Assembly (NCBI GenBank): GCA_026395755.1
Contig: JAPLYC010000021.1
Location: forward strand, 1-35,133
Direction of reading: 5' to 3'
Length of the DNA stretch: 35,133 nucleotides
Origin: Candidatus Parcubacteria bacterium
GTDB taxonomy: Bacteria; Patescibacteriota; Patescibacteriia; CAIXNZ01
Made by a program: the position numbers and the translations under genes. Every line of letters starts with the position of its first letter. The stretch's first letter is position 1. Under the pieces are notes generated by a model, which had not been told where the DNA came from, searched no databases, and worked only from the letters and a program-made list of their open reading frames with translations. Below are positions 2,074 to 35,133 of the stretch, in pieces.

Positions 2074-2316
2074 TTAAATTGCCTGAATGGACATGGGGAT
2101 AAGCTGAGGCAGTGGTTGTTTGTCTATGGCCTCGGTAACCACACAGCCATTTTTTTTCAGCTTAGCGACTTCGTTCACGGTGAGCGGGACGGCTATGCAC
2201 CCCGGTTCCACCGGAAACATTTTCCTTGTGTAAATGCCGCTTTTGATCAGGGCATTCATCACGGCCGCAGTGCCTCCAGATTTACTGACATGAAATATTT
2301 TCAGTTTCATAACCAT
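2074..2316 (-). CDS. Orphan protein, 80 aa, function unknown
   Basis: An 80-residue protein beginning MVMKLKIFHVSKSGG, with a Cys at about position 40 (VEPGCIAVPLTV) and another near 57 (KKNGCVV). No family is recognised. The gene is nonetheless convincing: AAAGGAGG lies 7-8 nt before the ATG at 2316, a consensus promoter lies upstream (2342-2370) and an intrinsic terminator lies just after the stop. The repeated pattern of short strands and charged turns suggests a small soluble alpha/beta domain, which is speculative. It is transcribed against the surrounding hydrogenase genes as a single-gene cassette. Confidence 0.72.
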   Translation of the reverse strand: MVMKLKIFHVSKSGGTAAVMNALIKSGIYTRKMFPVEPGCIAVPLTVNEVAKLKKNGCVVTEAIDKQPLPQLIPMSIQAI

Positions 2317-2341
2317 GCGTTATCCTCCTTTCGGATTATAT

Positions 2342-2370
2342 ATATTACCATATAAATAGAATCTTGTCAA
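2342..2370 (-). promoter_or_regulatory. Sigma-70-type promoter for the 80-aa orphan gene
   Basis: On the minus strand: TTGACA (2370-2365), a 17-bp spacer, then TAATAT (2347-2342). The SD and the ATG at 2316 follow within about 30 nt. Confidence 0.8.
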
Positions 2371-2399
2371 GCCAGTAATTTATTCTTTAAAAATAGTAT

Positions 2400-2432
2400 A
2401 AAAAAAGCCCGCCGGTTGGTGTTCCGGCAGGC
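2400..2432 (-). terminator. Intrinsic terminator of the 125-aa orphan gene
   Basis: Minus strand: GCCTGCCGG, an 8-nt loop, then CCGGCGGGC and a run of seven T. It sits 10 bases after the stop at 2442. Confidence 0.85.
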
Positions 2433-2441
2433 TGTTGCGCC

Positions 2442-2819
2442 TCAGCTGAACCTGTCAATGAGGTGCATCTTGGCCACCACCTTCTGGTAGTGACAGGGTA
2501 TGGCGTCGAGGTCAAAACCGTTTGGCAGATAGGCGTGAGCCAGAAGAGCGGCTTCATTGATCTCCCAGACACGGAGGCAATCGTTGTGGGTGCAGGCGAT
2601 GTTGACTTTGCCGTTTTCCGTCTTTACCCAGTAGCCGATGCTGCCCCAGATGATGCCGGCATAGGCGAGGTCATGCTCCGAGTGAAGGAATCCGAGCTTT
2701 TCCATCAGTTCCAGATTGGTCAGTTGTAATGCTTTGATTTGACTGGACCATCGGGAAATCCCGGAAGTCGTGGTTCTTCCCCTCGTAAAACACAATTCCA
2801 GCATCAAGCTTTGTGACAT
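2442..2819 (-). CDS. Orphan protein, 125 aa, possible compensated frameshift near N-terminus
   Basis: An open frame of 125 codons with AAAGGAG before the ATG at 2819, a consensus promoter (2875-2903) and a terminator at 2400-2432. The C-terminal two thirds (LELMEKLGFLHSEHDLAYAG onward, then VWEINEAALLAHAYLPNGFD) look like a normal globular protein. The first about 30 residues in this frame are Ser/Thr/Arg-rich and unnatural. Over the same stretch the neighbouring frame reads TKLDAGIVFYEGKNHDFRD, which looks much more protein-like. Either the N-terminus is genuinely odd, or two compensating indels (natural or assembly errors) separate the frames. No family is recognised. Confidence 0.6.
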   Translation of the reverse strand: MSQSLMLELCFTRGRTTTSGISRWSSQIKALQLTNLELMEKLGFLHSEHDLAYAGIIWGSIGYWVKTENGKVNIACTHNDCLRVWEINEAALLAHAYLPNGFDLDAIPCHYQKVVAKMHLIDRFS

Positions 2820-2874
2820 GATAGCTCCTTTCTGTGAGTAAACTATTGAAAAACACTATTTTAGCCATCAATAT

Positions 2875-2903
2875 ATAATAGCATATTTTAACAATATTGT
2901 CAA
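2875..2903 (-). promoter_or_regulatory. Sigma-70-type promoter for the 125-aa orphan, overlapping hypC start
   Basis: Minus strand: TTGACA (2903-2898), a 17-bp spacer, TATTAT (2880-2875). The -35 box shares its first base with the hypC start codon on the other strand, so transcription initiation leftward and hypC translation start share the same bases. Confidence 0.8.
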
Positions 2904-3118
2904 TGTGTTTAACAATACCAGGTAAAATTAAGCGAATTTCAGGCAAAACAGCCGTGATTGAGCAGAATAATAAATTACGCAAGATCAGCCTTGCTATTTT
3001 AGACAAGTTGAAAATTGGGGACTGGATTTTGGTATTAAATAATATGGCGGTTGAAAAAATTTCCAGCTTAGAAGCCAAAAAGATTATTAATTTGTATAAA
3101 TATGAACAATCTAAATAA
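2903..3118 (+). CDS. hypC: Hydrogenase maturation chaperone HypC
   Basis: A 71-residue HypC/HupF-family OB-fold chaperone, which together with HypD assembles and delivers the Fe(CN)2CO unit to the large subunit. The start is set at 2903 because family members begin M-C-L-x-I-P-G, and Cys2 is the catalytic iron ligand exposed after Met removal. A TTG six bases earlier would bury it. MCLTIPGKI and the GDWILVLNNMAVEKI segment (G-D-x-V-L-V-x-x-G-x-A-I in relatives) are both present. It overlaps the EamA transporter gene by 17 bases. There is no SD. Confidence 0.93.
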   Translation: MCLTIPGKIKRISGKTAVIEQNNKLRKISLAILDKLKIGDWILVLNNMAVEKISSLEAKKIINLYKYEQSK

Positions 3119-4013
3119 AGGTTTAGCGCTTGTCTTAGGCAGTGCTTTAATTTCCGGAGTGTCAATCTTTTTAAATAAGTTTGCTGTTTCGGCCATCAGT
3201 AATTCTGATGTTTTTACTACTGTTAAAAATTTGGCTGTCGGTTTGGTTTTAACTGGATTGATTTTACTGCCTATTTATTTCAGTAAGTTAAAAAATCTCA
3301 AAATAGGTGAGTGGCTGAAATTATTTTTAATCGGTTTTATCGGCGGCAGTATCCCTTTCCTGTTATTTTTTAAAGGTTTGAGTATGACCAACGCCAGCAG
3401 TGCTGCATTTATCCATAAGACTCTTTTTCTTTGGGTAAGCTTTTTGGCCGTCTATTTTCTCAAAGAAAAACTGGGACGTTTGCAATATTTTGCCTTAGCC
3501 TTATTATTCCTGGGTAATTTCACTATGCTGGGTTTCAAGATGTTTAGTTTATCGCAGGGTGAATTATTGGTTTTGGGTGCAACCTTAATGTGGGCCATTG
3601 AATTTGTAATTGCCAAAAAAGTCCTAGCCAGTGTACCCGCGGAAATAGTAGCCTGGGCCAGAATGTTTTTCGGCGCAATTATTCTTTTGAGTTATTTGGT
3701 TTTTAGCGGCCAAACCGCGAGTTTGATATCTTTAAATTCCGGCCAATGGTTTTGGGTGGCCATCAGCAGTATCTTGCTTTTAGGTTATGTGTTTACCTGG
3801 TATAAAGCTTTGGCCAAACTGCCTGTAGTCGTTGTTACCTCTGTTTTAGTTTTGGCTTCGCCGATTACCACGTGTTTGGAATTAATTTATAGTCATAAGA
3901 TTAATAATTATCAAATAGGCGGCAGTGTTTTGATTGTTACTGCGATAATTTTGATTTTTTATTCATTAAAAAAATTAAATGAAAGCCCCATTGTCAGCCA
4001 GCAATTCAATTAA
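3102..4013 (+). CDS. EamA/DMT-family transporter
   Basis: A 303-residue polytopic membrane protein with ten predicted hydrophobic segments in two EamA repeats: repeat 1 about residues 5-145, repeat 2 about 155-290. Repeat ends carry the typical A-A-F-I-H-K/L-F-L-W pattern in the first half and WAIEFVIAKKVL opening the second. DMT-superfamily permeases export or import small metabolites such as amino acids; the substrate cannot be read from the sequence. It sits translationally coupled between hypC (17-nt overlap) and the next gene (35-nt overlap), so it belongs to the hyp/hyd operon. A nickel, cofactor or metabolite role tied to the hydrogenase is only inference. Confidence 0.88.
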   Translation: MNNLNKGLALVLGSALISGVSIFLNKFAVSAISNSDVFTTVKNLAVGLVLTGLILLPIYFSKLKNLKIGEWLKLFLIGFIGGSIPFLLFFKGLSMTNASSAAFIHKTLFLWVSFLAVYFLKEKLGRLQYFALALLFLGNFTMLGFKMFSLSQGELLVLGATLMWAIEFVIAKKVLASVPAEIVAWARMFFGAIILLSYLVFSGQTASLISLNSGQWFWVAISSILLLGYVFTWYKALAKLPVVVVTSVLVLASPITTCLELIYSHKINNYQIGGSVLIVTAIILIFYSLKKLNESPIVSQQFN

Positions 4014-7139: not shown

Positions 7140-8405
7140 ATGGCATTAAAAACAATTAAAATTAACCATATTGCCAAAATGGAAGGGCACACCGGGTTTG
7201 TGGCTTCGATATTAGATGGTGATGTCAAACAGGCCAAATTTGATACCCTGGAAGGCGCGCGTCTGATTGAAGGTATTCTTTTGGGCCGCGATTATTTTGA
7301 AGTGCCCATGATAACGGCGCGTATCTGCGGCATTTGTCCGATCGTGCATTTCTTATCAGCCACGCAGGCGATTGAAGACGCTTTTGGAACTAAAGTCAGC
7401 AGCCAGACAGTGGCATTAAGGAAAATCATGGAATTGCTGCAGATTGTGCATTCACATTCATTGCATGTGTTTTTCCTGTCTTTGCCTGATTTTTTTGGCA
7501 TTGAAAATGATCTGAATTTTATAAAAAAATTCCCCAAGGAAACAAACATGGCTTTGCGGGTGCGTAAGCTGGCCATTGAGCTGGTGAAACTAATTGGAGG
7601 CAGGGTCGTTCATCCTTTAACCATGGAAGTGGGCGGATTTAAAAAATTGCCTTCAATGGAAGAAATTAACAAACTGATGAAGGGTTTTGCCCCGGTTTTT
7701 GAAGACGCGCTGTCACTGGCAGAATTTACCGGCAAGATTCAGTTTCCGAAATTCAGGCGCCAGCAGGAATTTATTGCGCTGTATGATAAGGATGAGTATG
7801 AAGTTTTAAAAGGGGATATTGTTTCCAGCAGTGGCAAAAGGTATACGGCCAAAGAATTTGAGCATCAAATCAGGGAACTTCATCAGCCGTTGGAAAATGT
7901 TAAACGGGTAAATTTGGGCGACAAGCCATATTACACAGGCGCTTTGGCGCGCATAAATTTAAATTTTGCCAAATTAAATCCGCAGGCCAAGAAACTCTGG
8001 CTGCAAAAAGGCCTGACCTTGCCGGTGGAAAATACTTTTTATAATGTCTATGCTCAGGCAGTTGAAATCGTCCATGCTCTGGAAGAAATTAAAAAATTAC
8101 TTGCTGAACTCGGAAAAATTGACCAGAAAAACACTAAAGTTAAAGTTATACCTAGAGCCGGCGAAGGCTATGGCGCAGTTGAAGCTCCGCGCGGTATTTT
8201 ACTGGATTATTATAAATTTGATGCCAAAGGCAAAGTACTGGAAGCCAATATCATTACGCCGACTGCTCAATTTCTTGCCAACATGGAAGCTGACTTGAAG
8301 GACTACTTGCCTTCTGTGTACAAATTGCCGGTTCATGAACGAAGACAAAAAATTAGGGCCCTGATAAGGGCATATGATCCGTGTATATCTTGTGCTACTC
8401 ATTAA
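7140..8405 (+). CDS. hydA: Sulfhydrogenase alpha (large, NiFe) subunit HydA
   Basis: A 421-residue group 3-type [NiFe]-hydrogenase catalytic subunit. The N-terminal L1 motif is R61-I-C63-G-I-C66 and the C-terminal L2 motif D413-P-C415-x-x-C418-x-x-H421; these four Cys hold the NiFe(CN)2CO centre. The early KMEGHTGF (Glu15, His17) and the REL..PLENVKR region also match the family. The enzyme interconverts H2 and protons using NAD(P)(H) through HydD/B/G, in the cytoplasm. Oddly the ORF stops right after the final His, so there is no C-terminal peptide for a maturation protease to remove. It is downstream of the 75-aa gene and has no SD. Confidence 0.95.
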   Translation: MALKTIKINHIAKMEGHTGFVASILDGDVKQAKFDTLEGARLIEGILLGRDYFEVPMITARICGICPIVHFLSATQAIEDAFGTKVSSQTVALRKIMELLQIVHSHSLHVFFLSLPDFFGIENDLNFIKKFPKETNMALRVRKLAIELVKLIGGRVVHPLTMEVGGFKKLPSMEEINKLMKGFAPVFEDALSLAEFTGKIQFPKFRRQQEFIALYDKDEYEVLKGDIVSSSGKRYTAKEFEHQIRELHQPLENVKRVNLGDKPYYTGALARINLNFAKLNPQAKKLWLQKGLTLPVENTFYNVYAQAVEIVHALEEIKKLLAELGKIDQKNTKVKVIPRAGEGYGAVEAPRGILLDYYKFDAKGKVLEANIITPTAQFLANMEADLKDYLPSVYKLPVHERRQKIRALIRAYDPCISCATH

Positions 8406-8420
8406 ATTATAAATTTATTC

Positions 8421-8490
8421 CCTGCTTTAGCAGGCACCGGACGGTTGCCCACTTCCACCTTCGCTGCGCTATGGTGGACAAGAAAGTGGG
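8421..8490. repeat. Composite palindromic intergenic repeat
   Basis: CCTGC-TTTA-GCAGG (8421-8434) is followed by a nested hairpin: outer CCCACTT/AAGTGGG (8448-8454 / 8484-8490), inner TCCACC/GGTGGA around TTCGCTGCGCTAT. This type of TCCACC..GGTGGA palindrome is a familiar dispersed element of CPR-type genomes (recollection, not a search). Confidence 0.6.
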
Positions 8491-8505
8491 GTATAAAGGA
8501 TTTAA

Positions 8506-9222
8506 ATGTTTAGATTTTTTATAAAATCCGCCATCGAAGACCCTCAACATATCGTCATTACCGATAAGGAAACGGTCAATAAAATCACCAAGGTTCTGCG
8601 TTTTGGAATCGGTGATGTTTTTGTGATTCTTGACAATACCGGGGAGGAATATGAAGTGAGAATTCAGGAAATAAAAAATAAGCAGGTTTTATGCACTTTG
8701 GTCAGCCGGTTGAATATTGACCGGGAATTGCCAGTGGAGATTAACCTCTATCAGTCTTTATTAAAAAAAGATAAACTGGAATGGCTGTGCCAGAAAGTCA
8801 CGGAAATCGGGGTTAAGCGCATTATTCCGGTTATTTCGGAAAATTGCGTGGTTAAGGAATTAAATCTTAATAAAACAAGCCGATACAAAAAAATTATTGA
8901 AGAAGCCACGATCCAAAGCGGGGGTAAAATTCCGCCCAAATTCGAGTCGGTTGTTCAATTTGAAAATGCGATTAAAAATTTGCATCCGCGCGCTTTGAAT
9001 TTGATCTGTCATGAGGAAGAACAGGATTTGCTTTTGGCCGAAGTTTTGGCTAAAAATTCCGAAAAAATCATCAATTTATTTATCGGCCCGGAAGGCGGAT
9101 TTTCCCAGTTTGAAATTGATTTAGCGAGGCAAAATTCGCTGGTTTTGGTAAGTCTGGGCAAACGCATCCTGCGTGCTGAAACCGCGGCCGTTATTAGCAG
9201 CGGTCTTTGCGCGAGTATTTAA
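8506..9222 (+). CDS. rsmE: 16S rRNA m3U1498 methyltransferase RsmE
   Basis: A 238-residue SPOUT-class methyltransferase that methylates N3 of U1498 in 16S rRNA using SAM. The N-terminal PUA-like domain (KVLRFGIGDVFVILDNTG, about 30-47) is followed by the SPOUT core: KDKLEWLCQKVTEIGV, then FIGPEGGFSQFEID (about 197-210) and LGKRILRAETA near the C-terminus, which form the SAM-binding knot. The length is normal. It begins about 100 bases after hydA, beyond a palindromic repeat, and is followed after 5 bases by the acyltransferase gene. Confidence 0.93.
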   Translation: MFRFFIKSAIEDPQHIVITDKETVNKITKVLRFGIGDVFVILDNTGEEYEVRIQEIKNKQVLCTLVSRLNIDRELPVEINLYQSLLKKDKLEWLCQKVTEIGVKRIIPVISENCVVKELNLNKTSRYKKIIEEATIQSGGKIPPKFESVVQFENAIKNLHPRALNLICHEEEQDLLLAEVLAKNSEKIINLFIGPEGGFSQFEIDLARQNSLVLVSLGKRILRAETAAVISSGLCASI

Positions 9223-32835: not shown

Positions 32836-32864
32836 TTGACTTTTTTTCTCGGATGTGCTAAGAT
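32836..32864 (+). promoter_or_regulatory. Promoter of the tandem riboswitch transcript
   Basis: TTGACT (32836-32841), a 17-bp spacer, TAAGAT (32859-32864). Start near 32871, about 20 nt before the first aptamer. Confidence 0.78.
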
Positions 32865-32890
32865 GTAATCATAGTTAAAAACTGAATAAT

Positions 32891-33001
32891 CATTATCCAG
32901 AGAGTGGGCAAGGGAACTGACCCGTTATAAGCTCACCAGCAACCTGTGGCTTTTGGCCATAAGGTGCTAAATTCAGCCCCGCGTGCGGGGGAAGATAATA
33001 A
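32891..33001 (+). promoter_or_regulatory. SAM-I (S-box) riboswitch aptamer 1
   Basis: P1: ATTATC (32892-32897) with GATAAT (32994-32999). P2: GTGGGC/GCTCAC and GGG/CCC. The core AGCAACC and AAGGTGCTAAATTC are the SAM-I consensus. P3: CCT-TGGC/GCCA-AGG. P4: GCCCCGC/GCGGGG. The P2 loop CTGA can pair with TCAG in the J3/4 strand, the diagnostic pseudoknot. The kink-turn strand reads GTTATAA instead of the usual GATGAA, so this copy may be weakened. It binds S-adenosylmethionine. Confidence 0.9.
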
Positions 33002-33014
33002 GTAATATATTTAG

Positions 33015-33047
33015 ATCTTACCCCCTTCTCGCGTGTAAGATTTTTTG
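33015..33047 (+). terminator. Expression platform terminator of riboswitch 1
   Basis: ATCTTAC (33015-33021) / GTAAGAT (33035-33041) followed by six or more T. Its 5' side is close enough to the 3' strand of P1 for mutually exclusive folding. Confidence 0.75.
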
Positions 33048-33081
33048 TTTTTTAACTGCAGTACTTTAACAATTGAATATA

Positions 33082-33194
33082 ATTATCAAGAGCGCAATAG
33101 GGAACAGGCCCGATGACTGCGCAGCAACCTTCTTCCGAAGCTTAGGCAAAGGAGGAAAGGTGCTTATTCCTGCCCCAAAAGGGGAAAGATAATA
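33082..33194 (+). promoter_or_regulatory. SAM-I (S-box) riboswitch aptamer 2
   Basis: P1: ATTATC (33082-33087) / GATAAT (33188-33193). P2: GCGCA/TGCGC and GGG/CCC with a canonical kink-turn strand GATGA. The core GCAGCAACC and AAAGGTGCTTATTCC are consensus. P3: CCTTCTTCC/GGAGGAAAGG. P4: GCCCC-AAAA-GGGG. The P2 loop CAGG pairs with CCTG of J3/4; compared with aptamer 1 (CTGA:TCAG) this is compensatory change, strong support for both. Also SAM-binding. A TATAAT overlaps its 5' edge but has no -35. Confidence 0.93.
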
Positions 33195-33231
33195 CTTATG
33201 GCTATTTGCCATTTGCCATATGCCAACAATC

Positions 33232-33261
33232 AGTCTTTCTCTTTTGGGAAAGGCTTTTTTA
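33232..33261 (+). terminator. Expression platform terminator of riboswitch 2
   Basis: AGTCTTTCTC (33232-33241) / GGGAAAGGCT (33246-33255), all ten positions paired including G-U, with a tract of six T. Between aptamer and terminator lie GGC/GCC-rich words that could form an antiterminator. Confidence 0.8.
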
Positions 33262-33266
33262 TTTGT

Positions 33267-33302
33267 CCCGCACCAGCCCCCGCACCGCGGGGTTGGTGCG
33301 GG
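33267..33302. repeat. GC-rich palindrome downstream of riboswitch 2
   Basis: CCCGCACCA (33267-33275) / TGGTGCGGG (33294-33302), inner CCCCGC/GCGGGG. No T-tract. It shares AGCCCCCGCACCG with the palindrome at 6397-6424. It lies in the leader of the zinc-ribbon gene. Confidence 0.6.
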
Positions 33303-33399
33303 ATTTCGCGTCCATCTGTAATTAAGAGAGATGTAAATCTCCGGGGGTGGAAGCTTACTTATCGTGCCAAAGTGTTCTTTAAAACCAAAAGGGAGGTAA

Positions 33400-34023
33400 A
33401 TGAAAATGAAAAAGATAGGGAGGAGTTATAAGTATGATTCAAGTTGCTTTCGCATGGGCGCACATCCAAGAGATGACTCAACCAAGTATTATTATACTGA
33501 ATACGTTGAGTATGCTAAAGATGGCCGGCCGTATTTTATCCGCCAATGGGATGGTGGAGGTGAAGATTTTGATAGTGAACCCATGTCAGCCGAAGGCAGA
33601 AAGCTCTTTCCAAACTTGACTCAAAAGTGTCCTGGGTGCGGGAGGCCTTTAAACCTTACTGAAGACACCTGTGATAATTATATGTGTATAAGGCCTATTG
33701 ATAACCCGATAATCATAGGACCAGAACCAGATCTAGATCCTGCCCAAAGGTTGTTGGAATTGCTTTTTAAAGATTGTCAGGAGCTGAAGGTTAGCCCTCA
33801 TTGGAAGGGCAGTGTTAAGGATGAAGCAGAGCATAGGCAAAAGGCAATTGTTGATTTGTGCGAAGTCCTGCTGGTTATTCGCATAGATCTGGAAATTAAG
33901 AAGGTTTGGGCAGACAAAGTAAAACAGCTGGCTGAAGATGTTAAAAATTACGGCTCATATGCAAGTAACGCAGCCTATGTTTTAGACGAGTTGTTTCGTA
34001 AGAGATTTAAACTCTTGGACTAA
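33400..34023 (+). CDS. Zinc-ribbon protein of unknown function, 207 aa, riboswitch-linked
   Basis: AAGGGAGGTAA precedes the ATG at 33400 (a second ATG lies 2 codons on). The N-terminal domain (about 1-105) reads KIGRSYKYDSSCFRMG, YYTEYVEYAKDGRPYFIRQWD, then a likely zinc ribbon CPGCGRPLN..DTC..YMC. The C-terminal about 100 residues are a separate helical domain (RLLELLFKDCQELKV to DELFRKRFKLLD). No family is recognised. It is the first gene after the two SAM-I riboswitches, and no promoter is seen between, so it is probably under SAM control. The N-terminal domain is duplicated in the next gene. Confidence 0.75.
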   Translation: MKMKKIGRSYKYDSSCFRMGAHPRDDSTKYYYTEYVEYAKDGRPYFIRQWDGGGEDFDSEPMSAEGRKLFPNLTQKCPGCGRPLNLTEDTCDNYMCIRPIDNPIIIGPEPDLDPAQRLLELLFKDCQELKVSPHWKGSVKDEAEHRQKAIVDLCEVLLVIRIDLEIKKVWADKVKQLAEDVKNYGSYASNAAYVLDELFRKRFKLLD

Positions 34024-34050: not shown

Positions 34051-34078
34051 GACCTGAGCAAGTCTTAAAACTGCTCAA
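34051..34078 (+). repeat. Direct repeat, copy 1 (duplication border)
   Basis: 28 bases beginning GACCTGAGCAAGTCTTAAAA and ending CTGCTCAA match 34481-34508 at 24 of 28 positions. It marks the 3' end of the duplicated unit. Confidence 0.7.
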
Positions 34079-34103: not shown

Positions 34104-34487
34104 ATGAAAAAGATAGGTAGGGATTTTAAGTACGATCAAAGTTGTTATCGGATGGGAGCAAAACCAGGCCCGAATTCCATTAAAAGGTTCTACACTGAAT
34201 ATGTGGAATATAGTGCTGCTAGAAACCATTACTTTATCCGTAGATGGGATAATGGACTTATAGAGTTTGACAGTGAGCCTTTGTCAGCAGAAGGCAAGCA
34301 ACTGTTTCCTAATCTGACTCGATATTGTCCTAATTGTCATGAGCCATTAAATTTTACTAAAGATCACTGTACTAATTGGCCTTCTTGTGGGCGATCTATT
34401 GATGATGATAATCGTATCAGAGTCAGGTCTGAACATGATTTCAATTTAGCAGATAACATTGCAGTCAATAGTACAAAAAAGACCTGA
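34104..34487 (+). CDS. Zinc-ribbon protein of unknown function, 127 aa, paralogue of preceding gene
   Basis: A GGGGAAAGGGAAT region precedes the ATG at 34104. The protein is colinear with residues 3-110 of the 207-aa neighbour: KIGRDFKYDQSCYRMG, FYTEYVEYSAARNHYFIRRWD, FDSEPLSAEGKQLFPNLT and a zinc ribbon CPNCHEPLN..DHC..WPSCGR. It lacks the helical C-terminal domain and ends SEHDFNLADNIAVNSTKKT, with the stop inside the repeated 28-mer. It is probably co-transcribed with the upstream paralogue and so may share its SAM-riboswitch control. Confidence 0.75.
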   Translation: MKKIGRDFKYDQSCYRMGAKPGPNSIKRFYTEYVEYSAARNHYFIRRWDNGLIEFDSEPLSAEGKQLFPNLTRYCPNCHEPLNFTKDHCTNWPSCGRSIDDDNRIRVRSEHDFNLADNIAVNSTKKT

Positions 34488-34508
34488 TTAAGTCTTATAA
34501 CTGCTCAA
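34481..34508 (+). repeat. Direct repeat, copy 2 (duplication border)
   Basis: 28 bases beginning GACCTGATTAAGTCTTATAA, matching 34051-34078 with four differences. Confidence 0.7.
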
Positions 34509-34566: not shown

Positions 34567-34594
34567 TTGACAAATTTATACTATAAGGTAAAAT
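34567..34594 (+). promoter_or_regulatory. Promoter of leader-peptide transcript
   Basis: TTGACA (34567-34572), a 16-bp spacer, TAAAAT (34589-34594). The ATG at 34603 is 8 bases beyond the -10, so the RNA should start at or 1-3 nt before it. Confidence 0.82.
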
Positions 34595-34602
34595 AAATAC
34601 AT

Positions 34603-34680
34603 ATGAACATCATTAAACAAGTTTGGTTTACCTATTTCTTTTTTAGCGGACTGCCAAAGCCAGCTTGTTTGAATGTGTAA
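34603..34680 (+). CDS. Putative leaderless aromatic-rich leader peptide, 25 aa
   Basis: An ATG immediately after a strong promoter opens a 25-codon frame, MNIIKQVWFTYFFFSGLPK..., ending PACLNV and TAA. Six of seven residues 8-14 are aromatic (W8 F9 Y11 F12 F13 F14), as in leader peptides of phe/trp/aro attenuators. The frame ends just before a terminator-like hairpin whose 5' arm can pair with the end of the peptide's own coding sequence. No SD is needed if the mRNA is leaderless. The peptide itself need have no function. Confidence 0.55.
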   Translation: MNIIKQVWFTYFFFSGLPKPACLNV

Positions 34681-34735
34681 AATAATTTCCTAAATTATTC
34701 AAATATAAAGAGCTGGCCAAATAGGTCAGCTCTTT
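34630..34735 (+). promoter_or_regulatory. Attenuator-like mutually exclusive RNA structures
   Basis: Terminator-like hairpin: AAAGAGCTGGCC (34707-34718) / GGTCAGCTCTTT (34724-34735), loop AAATA, weak T-tract TTTAAAGTTT. Competing nested helices: TTTGAAT (34668-34674) with ATTCAAA (34697-34703); GCCAGCT (34659-34665) with AGCTGGC (34711-34717); ACCTATTT (34630-34637) with AAATAGGT (34719-34726). A ribosome stalled at Phe12-14 would leave 34659-34674 free to form the antiterminator; one at the stop codon would cover it. Confidence 0.55.
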
Positions 34736-34753
34736 AAAGTTTATATTGAATAG

Positions 34754-34797: not shown

Positions 34798-34947
34798 ATG
34801 AACCGGAAACAAAGGCGGAAGTTAAAGAGGATATTTAGTAAGAATGGCGGCAAAAAAAGTTTAAATCCTTATTTTGTCGCCTCAAGCGGATTGGTATTGG
34901 ATTTCAGTTCTAAAGGAGGGTATAGGGATGTTGTCAAAGGAAACTAA
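34798..34947 (+). CDS. Small basic orphan protein, 49 aa
   Basis: AAGGAGGG lies 5-6 nt before the ATG at 34798. 49 residues: a very basic start (MNRKQRRKLKRIFSKNGGKK), then SLNPYFVASSGLVLDFSS and a short tail. No Cys, no family recognised; nucleic-acid binding is possible from the charge. It contains the SD of the next gene, which overlaps it by 20 bases, so the two are translationally coupled. It lies downstream of the attenuator-like leader. Confidence 0.6.
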   Translation: MNRKQRRKLKRIFSKNGGKKSLNPYFVASSGLVLDFSSKGGYRDVVKGN

Positions 34948-35133
34948 GGGGGGAAACAAAAATGCATCAGTGCCGGTCGCTGACGCTGGTGTCATGGAAA
35001 CCAGATGGCTGGTAGGCAAAAGCTTGTTAAATGGGGGCAAAAAGCTCAGGCCTGATTTGCAGGAACTTCTAGATAAATTAGGGGTAACTGTCAGCAAAGT
35101 CGTGATTGATCACGGGCCTGAGCCGATGGTTTG
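34928..35133 (+). CDS. Unknown protein, N-terminal part (runs off window)
   Basis: AAAGGAGGG about 7 nt before the ATG at 34928 supports this start inside the preceding gene. 68 codons are visible: MLSKETKGGNKNASVPVADAG, then ETRWLVGKSLLNGGKKLRPDL and ELLDKLGVTVSKVVIDHGPEP, open at the edge. The mix of a disordered start and an alpha/beta-like continuation is unremarkable, and no family is recognised. The opposite-strand open frame here lacks an SD and is a shadow. Confidence 0.65.
   Translation, partial: MLSKETKGGNKNASVPVADAGVMETRWLVGKSLLNGGKKLRPDLQELLDKLGVTVSKVVIDHGPEPMV

Follow-up and report, generated by a model that had tools for sequence, protein, structure and literature searches.

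A pair of complete SAM-I riboswitches, placed in series behind one promoter, precedes genes for orphan proteins in a genome of Candidatus Parcubacteria bacterium. With a probability of about two in three, the two act as serial SAM-off switches that govern how a SAM auxotroph responds to a shortage of SAM. We infer that the ligand is SAM and that low SAM turns the operon on, and likewise the function of the proteins. SAM riboswitches are the textbook feedback devices of SAM-making cells. The surprise is in the target. Here the serial switches are intact in a tiny, host-dependent Parcubacterium without a detectable SAM synthetase.

The stretch of DNA that was analysed (the window, 35,133 nucleotides) makes up contig C28 entirely. 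The genome to which it belongs (G000) comprises 1.46 Mb on 120 contigs and is 99.19% complete with an estimated contamination of 6.57%. The same arrangement is found in the sister genome G001 (same genus, 100% complete, 1% contaminated), which matches Ca. Parcubacteria bacterium LacPavin_0920_SED5_MAG_38_14 from Lac Pavin. The third genome compared, G005, belongs to another genus of the same family. All genomes compared are draft assemblies, mostly derived from metagenomes.

Two aptamers and their expression platforms

Searching the window with cmscan gave exactly two Rfam matches above the gathering score, both to SAM-I (RF00162, cut-off 44.4 bits) and both on the plus strand: copy 1 at 32890-33001 (55.1 bits, E 3.2e-10) and copy 2 at 33080-33195 (72.2 bits, E 3.3e-15). 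The two SAM-I aptamers that had been proposed in a first-pass annotation of this DNA were thus recovered by the covariance model. The alignments confirmed the core claimed for both copies (GCAACC and GGTGC) and showed that J1/2 AGAG and GATAA are also kept. The covariation described for the pseudoknot between the P2 loop and J3-4 was found as well, with CTGA:TCAG in copy 1 and CAGG:CCTG in copy 2; the letters are identical copy by copy in G001 and read CTGG:CCAG in copy 1 of G005. The kink-turn of copy 2 is canonical. Copy 1, as had been noticed before, has an altered kink-turn strand next to its intact core, GTTATAA replacing GATGA, and this is common to copy 1 of G001 in the alignment. It also has a C at model position 9. 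The weak kink-turn of copy 1 could reduce its affinity for SAM.

Ahead of copy 1 a promoter was found where it had been expected, TTGACT-17-TAAGAT with a TG before the -10 (extended -10), at 32836-32864 on the plus strand; its counterparts align in G001 and G005. Downstream in copy 1, the 3' strand of P1/P4, GGGGGAAGAT (32987-32996), pairs with ATCTTACCCCC (33015-33025) as antiterminator 1 (32987-33025, plus strand; duplex -21.8 kcal/mol), and copy 1 of G001 pairs likewise. Antiterminator 2 (33181-33244, plus strand; -20.9 kcal/mol) joins GGGGAAAGAT (33181-33190) to the 5' half of terminator 2, a pairing also present in copy 2 of G001. The claim that each aptamer has its own terminator was borne out for terminator 2 (33232-33261, plus strand) by the terminator scanner, which matched 33232-33255 in a region that folds at -19.5 kcal/mol. 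For terminator 1 (about 33015-33046, plus strand; ATCTTAC...GTAAGAT followed by T6) it was borne out by sequence and fold, its 13-base loop being beyond the limit of the scanner. In both copies antiterminator and terminator are mutually exclusive, as in classical SAM-I off-switch platforms. Upstream of one ORF there are thus two complete riboswitches of the same class, and each of them carries an expression platform of its own. A promoter between 33261 and 33400, which the first-pass annotation had considered as a means of uncoupling the genes, was looked for, and nothing promoter-like was present on the plus strand. This interval contains a stretch of 93 bp (33266-33358, plus strand) that holds a strong GC hairpin and that G001 lacks at the corresponding point. 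Judged from this comparison, it is a probable insertion or replacement between terminator 2 and the first gene, and it could alter expression.

Binding of SAM would hold P1, which would block the antiterminator and let the terminator end transcription, so that RNA polymerase starting from the one promoter would have two checkpoints to clear. Because both would be required, the orphan operon (B and B' in G000; A-B-A' in G001) would be expressed only at low SAM. The pair of aptamers would be expected to give a tighter and steeper off-state.

The promoter, the aptamer pair and downstream orphan genes were all found again in G001. Its aptamers lie at 330-452 and 531-634 of contig C10 and are followed by A (727-1446), B (1557-2201) and A' (2287-3003), and beyond these by a leader-peptide attenuator, the gene for a small protein and rplJ-rplL. 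The order in the window is the aptamer pair, B, B' and then the same attenuator. In G005 the pair occupies the same locus, after rlmH, with no ORF before the attenuator; here, where the gene behind the pair is absent, decay has brought copy 2 down to 17.3 bits. Between G000 and G001 the first copies are 80% and the second copies 82% identical, compared with 68% (G000) and 63% (G001) for copy 1 against copy 2 within a species. Since like copies are closer across species than unlike copies within one, the duplication predates the divergence of G000 from G001 and is probably also older than that of G005. SAM-I elements adjoining rlmH were not found in six other genomes of the family (in G002 rlmH lies at a contig end), and the riboswitch DNA had no match in plasmids. 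Elsewhere in the class, a second close SAM-I pair (61 and 32 bits) was seen at G111:C8:13652-13951 (L094); this Paceibacterium has metK, and the pair precedes unidentified ORFs.

Orphan proteins and the supply of SAM

The first gene of the controlled operon in G000 encodes protein B (33400-34023, plus strand; 207 aa, CX2C-X10-CX4C). It is followed by the gene for B' (34104-34487, plus strand; 127 aa), which aligns to the N-terminal part of B, in agreement with the paralogue predicted at this position. The orthologue of B in G001 is 56% identical (dN 0.36, dS 2.2), and by this sequence measure B is under purifying selection; for B' against B, dN is 0.38 and dS is saturated. The usual SAM-I targets (methionine, cysteine and SAM genes) are absent behind the pair, and A, B and B' match no curated family. 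No Pfam, NCBIfam or PHROG family was matched above the cut-off by B or B', and neither A nor a 222-aa protein on contig C66 has relatives in the libraries searched. All hits to B belong to this genus, namely 2 of 95 relatives and one record among 84,980 species genomes; viral contigs and phage records gave no match. The earlier description of B as an unrecognised zinc-ribbon protein held as far as 'unrecognised' is concerned. For the zinc ribbon itself the basis is a CX2C-X10-CX4-5C pattern together with matches to Zn_Ribbon_1 and DZR (E 0.01-0.02) that are below the Pfam cut-off; the four cysteines of B are conserved in four sequences. The structure model of B (pLDDT 48.9) is too poor to be usable for a fold search. 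As the first controlled gene in G001 is A, the family at 33400 is one interchangeable cargo and not the defining one.

SAM synthetase (metK, PF02773) was absent from all nine family genomes searched, and the archaeal-type MAT (PF01941) from G000, G001 and G005, the controls being positive where expected in both searches. For the drafts as a whole, absence of metK is strong for the complete genomes G001 and G038 and weaker for G147, G180 and G224. The window encodes SAM-dependent methyltransferases, namely RlmH and an O-methyltransferase-like protein. Without a detectable SAM synthetase, G000 would have to get its SAM externally, and the switches would thereby report the state of the SAM supply. 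The EamA family includes known SAM importers of intracellular, host-dependent bacteria. EamA-family transporters are present in G000, and the one in the window (3102-4013, 303 aa) may be the importer of SAM here.

The orphan proteins were themselves considered as SAM importers, and this was rejected: hydropathy showed A and B, like the families F1, F2 and F3 treated below, to be hydrophilic and devoid of a membrane span, and for such soluble proteins an import role is unlikely. B' and the 222-aa protein on C66 likewise had no membrane span by hydropathy. Uptake had been among the functions suggested when a new SAM-responsive role was proposed for these genes, and that part of the proposal loses ground; the new role as such is favoured by the genus-conserved arrangement, the linkage of F1 and F3 to SAM-I and the absence of metK. 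Most likely, the orphan proteins serve a SAM-shortage response rather than being biosynthesis enzymes. They might act by sparing SAM, by adjusting SAM-using enzymes or through dormancy.

Several other elements surround these genes. A repeat element, GAGCA-AGTCTTAAAAC-TGCTC (34056-34076, plus strand), is intergenic and in both species follows genes of the SAM-I operon. Its 17-base block AAGTCTTAAAACTGCTC was found at 34056-34076 and 34480-34506, at L037:1523-1539 and 2252-2268 and at L038:9133-9149 (minus strand). One base varies in one copy, and most copies have the matching GAGCA upstream, with which the block may make a hairpin or pseudoknot that encloses a further hairpin in G001. The repeat had no Rfam match above the cut-off; it may represent an RNA element or else a recombination site behind the gene turnover. 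Further downstream is a probable leader-peptide attenuator (34567-34740; also L037:3540-3690, L038:8200-8350 on the minus strand and L040:5740-5910). It consists of a strong promoter, a 25-codon ORF (34603-34680, MNIIKQVWFTYFFFSGLPKPACLNV) rich in Trp, Phe and Tyr, and a terminator (34706-34736) whose 5' half is able to base-pair with the last part of the ORF. Four loci in three genomes conserve it (consensus KQ..F..YFF.....PACLN); two tiny proteins and rplJ-rplL are encoded behind it. Small WLVGK..LNGG proteins (34874-35131, L038:7764-8027 on the minus strand, L037:3750-4019 and L040:6143-6355) are encoded just upstream of rplJ-rplL in G000, G001 and G005, the member of G005 having no Pfam or NCBIfam match. 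A B-like gene, the attenuator and the small genes occur both on the end of C28 and on that of C66 (L038:8200-9542) with diverged sequences, which reflects either duplication in tandem or a bin that mixes two strains. Between C28 and C66 the draft assembly has a repeated region that it leaves unresolved, so the operon of G000 may extend further.

SAM-I elements across Paceibacteria

The class-wide search used stricter filters and covered 381 Paceibacteria genomes drawn out of a larger group. A SAM-I match was present in 104 of them and metK in 223, with both in 86 (odds ratio 4.9, p = 1.6e-9); in genomes with both, metK often lies directly behind SAM-I (at least 28 pairs). In the 18 SAM-I genomes without metK, recurring orphan families stand behind the aptamers. 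One of these, F1 (about 135-150 aa, motif FGFVPxxLEIKxRPEL...GEKFVN), is directly downstream of SAM-I in all seven carriers, from six families (E < 1e-20), a result that is circular for G000, G038, G147, G218 and G224, where F1 was first spotted behind SAM-I, and non-circular for G114 and G180, found by protein search alone. The F1 gene of G000 is on contig C5, behind the third SAM-I of the genome. F3 (about 100 aa) was found in six genomes (E < 1e-5), G108, G259 and G306 again by protein search alone, with SAM-I just upstream in five; the sixth, G306, has an aptamer remnant with a recognisable 5' half that is below cmscan detection. F3 is fused to F1 in G218, and to F1 and the zinc-ribbon domain F2 in G224. 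Six of the seven F1 carriers are metK-less, against 12 of the 97 other SAM-I genomes (Fisher p = 8e-5), and a few metK-positive carriers of F1 or F3 exist (G114, G108 and G259).

The F1 model (pLDDT 85.5, pTM 0.77) predicts a six-stranded beta meander flanked by helices. A fold search against the PDB and viral models returned nothing at E <= 0.001, viral contigs gave no match to F1, and among 230 genomes across the phylum only its own genome was hit. Weak matches of F3 inside serine hydroxymethyltransferase (E about 1e-4) were set aside as likely chance. Profile comparison detected no similarity of B or A to F1, of B to F3 or of B' and B to F1 and F3, so that the tie of F1 and F3 to the tandem operon is regulatory only. 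Near the third SAM-I, transposase-type ORFs of the REP-associated (Y1-like) kind were recognised by eye (L039:7083-7658 and 8327-8887), and a hairpin insertion, similar in kind to the 33266-33358 stretch, lies between this SAM-I and the F1 gene.

In these relatives SAM-I precedes gene families almost absent elsewhere, which points to an undescribed SAM-shortage response. A wider proposal is that Paceibacteria without SAM synthesis re-used SAM-I for the small soluble families A, B, F1, F2 and F3 as a dedicated response of this kind, F1 being a family that is new at the level of the fold and is expressed solely under the control of SAM. This is tentative, and we place it slightly below even odds.

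Targets outside SAM and methionine metabolism in a host without metK would also be accounted for if the aptamers had shifted to a different ligand, such as spermidine, SAH or MTA. The altered kink-turn of copy 1 and its C at model position 9 fit such a shift, and a precedent in SAM-I is documented in PMC10853860. However, the scores of both copies clearly exceed the SAM cut-off, with GCAACC, GGTGC, AGAG and GATAA kept, and neither copy was found to have the altered nucleotides in J1/2 and in the internal loop of P3 that characterise the spermidine class, the P3 core being intact, which makes a change of ligand unlikely. It is about equally improbable that the riboswitches were left behind when a metK or methionine operon was lost and that the orphan genes drifted in behind them without functional coupling. 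The frequent position of SAM-I before metK in metK-positive relatives would be expected from such an origin, as would the different genes behind the pair in G000, G001 and G005 and the 93-bp stretch before B. Yet both copies, the promoter and the antiterminators are retained in two species although B is only 56% identical, copy 2 decays precisely in G005 where no gene follows, and F1 and F3 became fixed behind SAM-I independently in several families.

Small, paralogous, fast-changing orphan proteins behind a SAM sensor, with repeats between their genes, might also suggest a defence or counter-defence module triggered by a fall in SAM, for instance through a phage SAM lyase. PADLOC gave no credible match, however (best E 0.004, for B'), and PHROGs, phage records and viral contigs gave none; this origin is regarded as very improbable. 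Two serial SAM-off switches on a SAM-shortage response remain the preferred reading.

Relation to known systems

In the literature, no description was found of orphan families being controlled by SAM-I in bacteria that lack SAM synthetase. No open-access paper brings SAM riboswitches and Parcubacteria together, which is weak evidence since subscription journals are mostly outside that search. The arrangement offers a tangible way to study how ultrasmall bacteria that depend on a host sense a cofactor which is essential to them and has to be imported, and it gives named orphan proteins a regulatory hint to their function, which is rare for such bacteria.

Tandem (pseudo-cooperative) SAM-I riboswitches are known, with 164 doubles and one triple described (PMC9481103), and the tandem as such was therefore rejected as a novelty. 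The present pair resembles them in having two complete riboswitches of the same class in series with their own terminators, but differs in being conserved before orphan genes in a SAM-auxotrophic Parcubacterial family and in the unusual kink-turn of copy 1. With the spermidine-sensing variants (PMC10853860) it shares a SAM-I-like aptamer and targets outside SAM biosynthesis; those variants are altered in J1/2 and in the internal loop of P3, whereas its P3 core is canonical. Compared with SAM-I (S-box, RF00162) in general, the aptamer structure, core, pseudoknot and transcriptional antiterminator/terminator platform are alike; the targets, in contrast, are orphan proteins instead of SAM or methionine genes, and the host family is without SAM synthetase.
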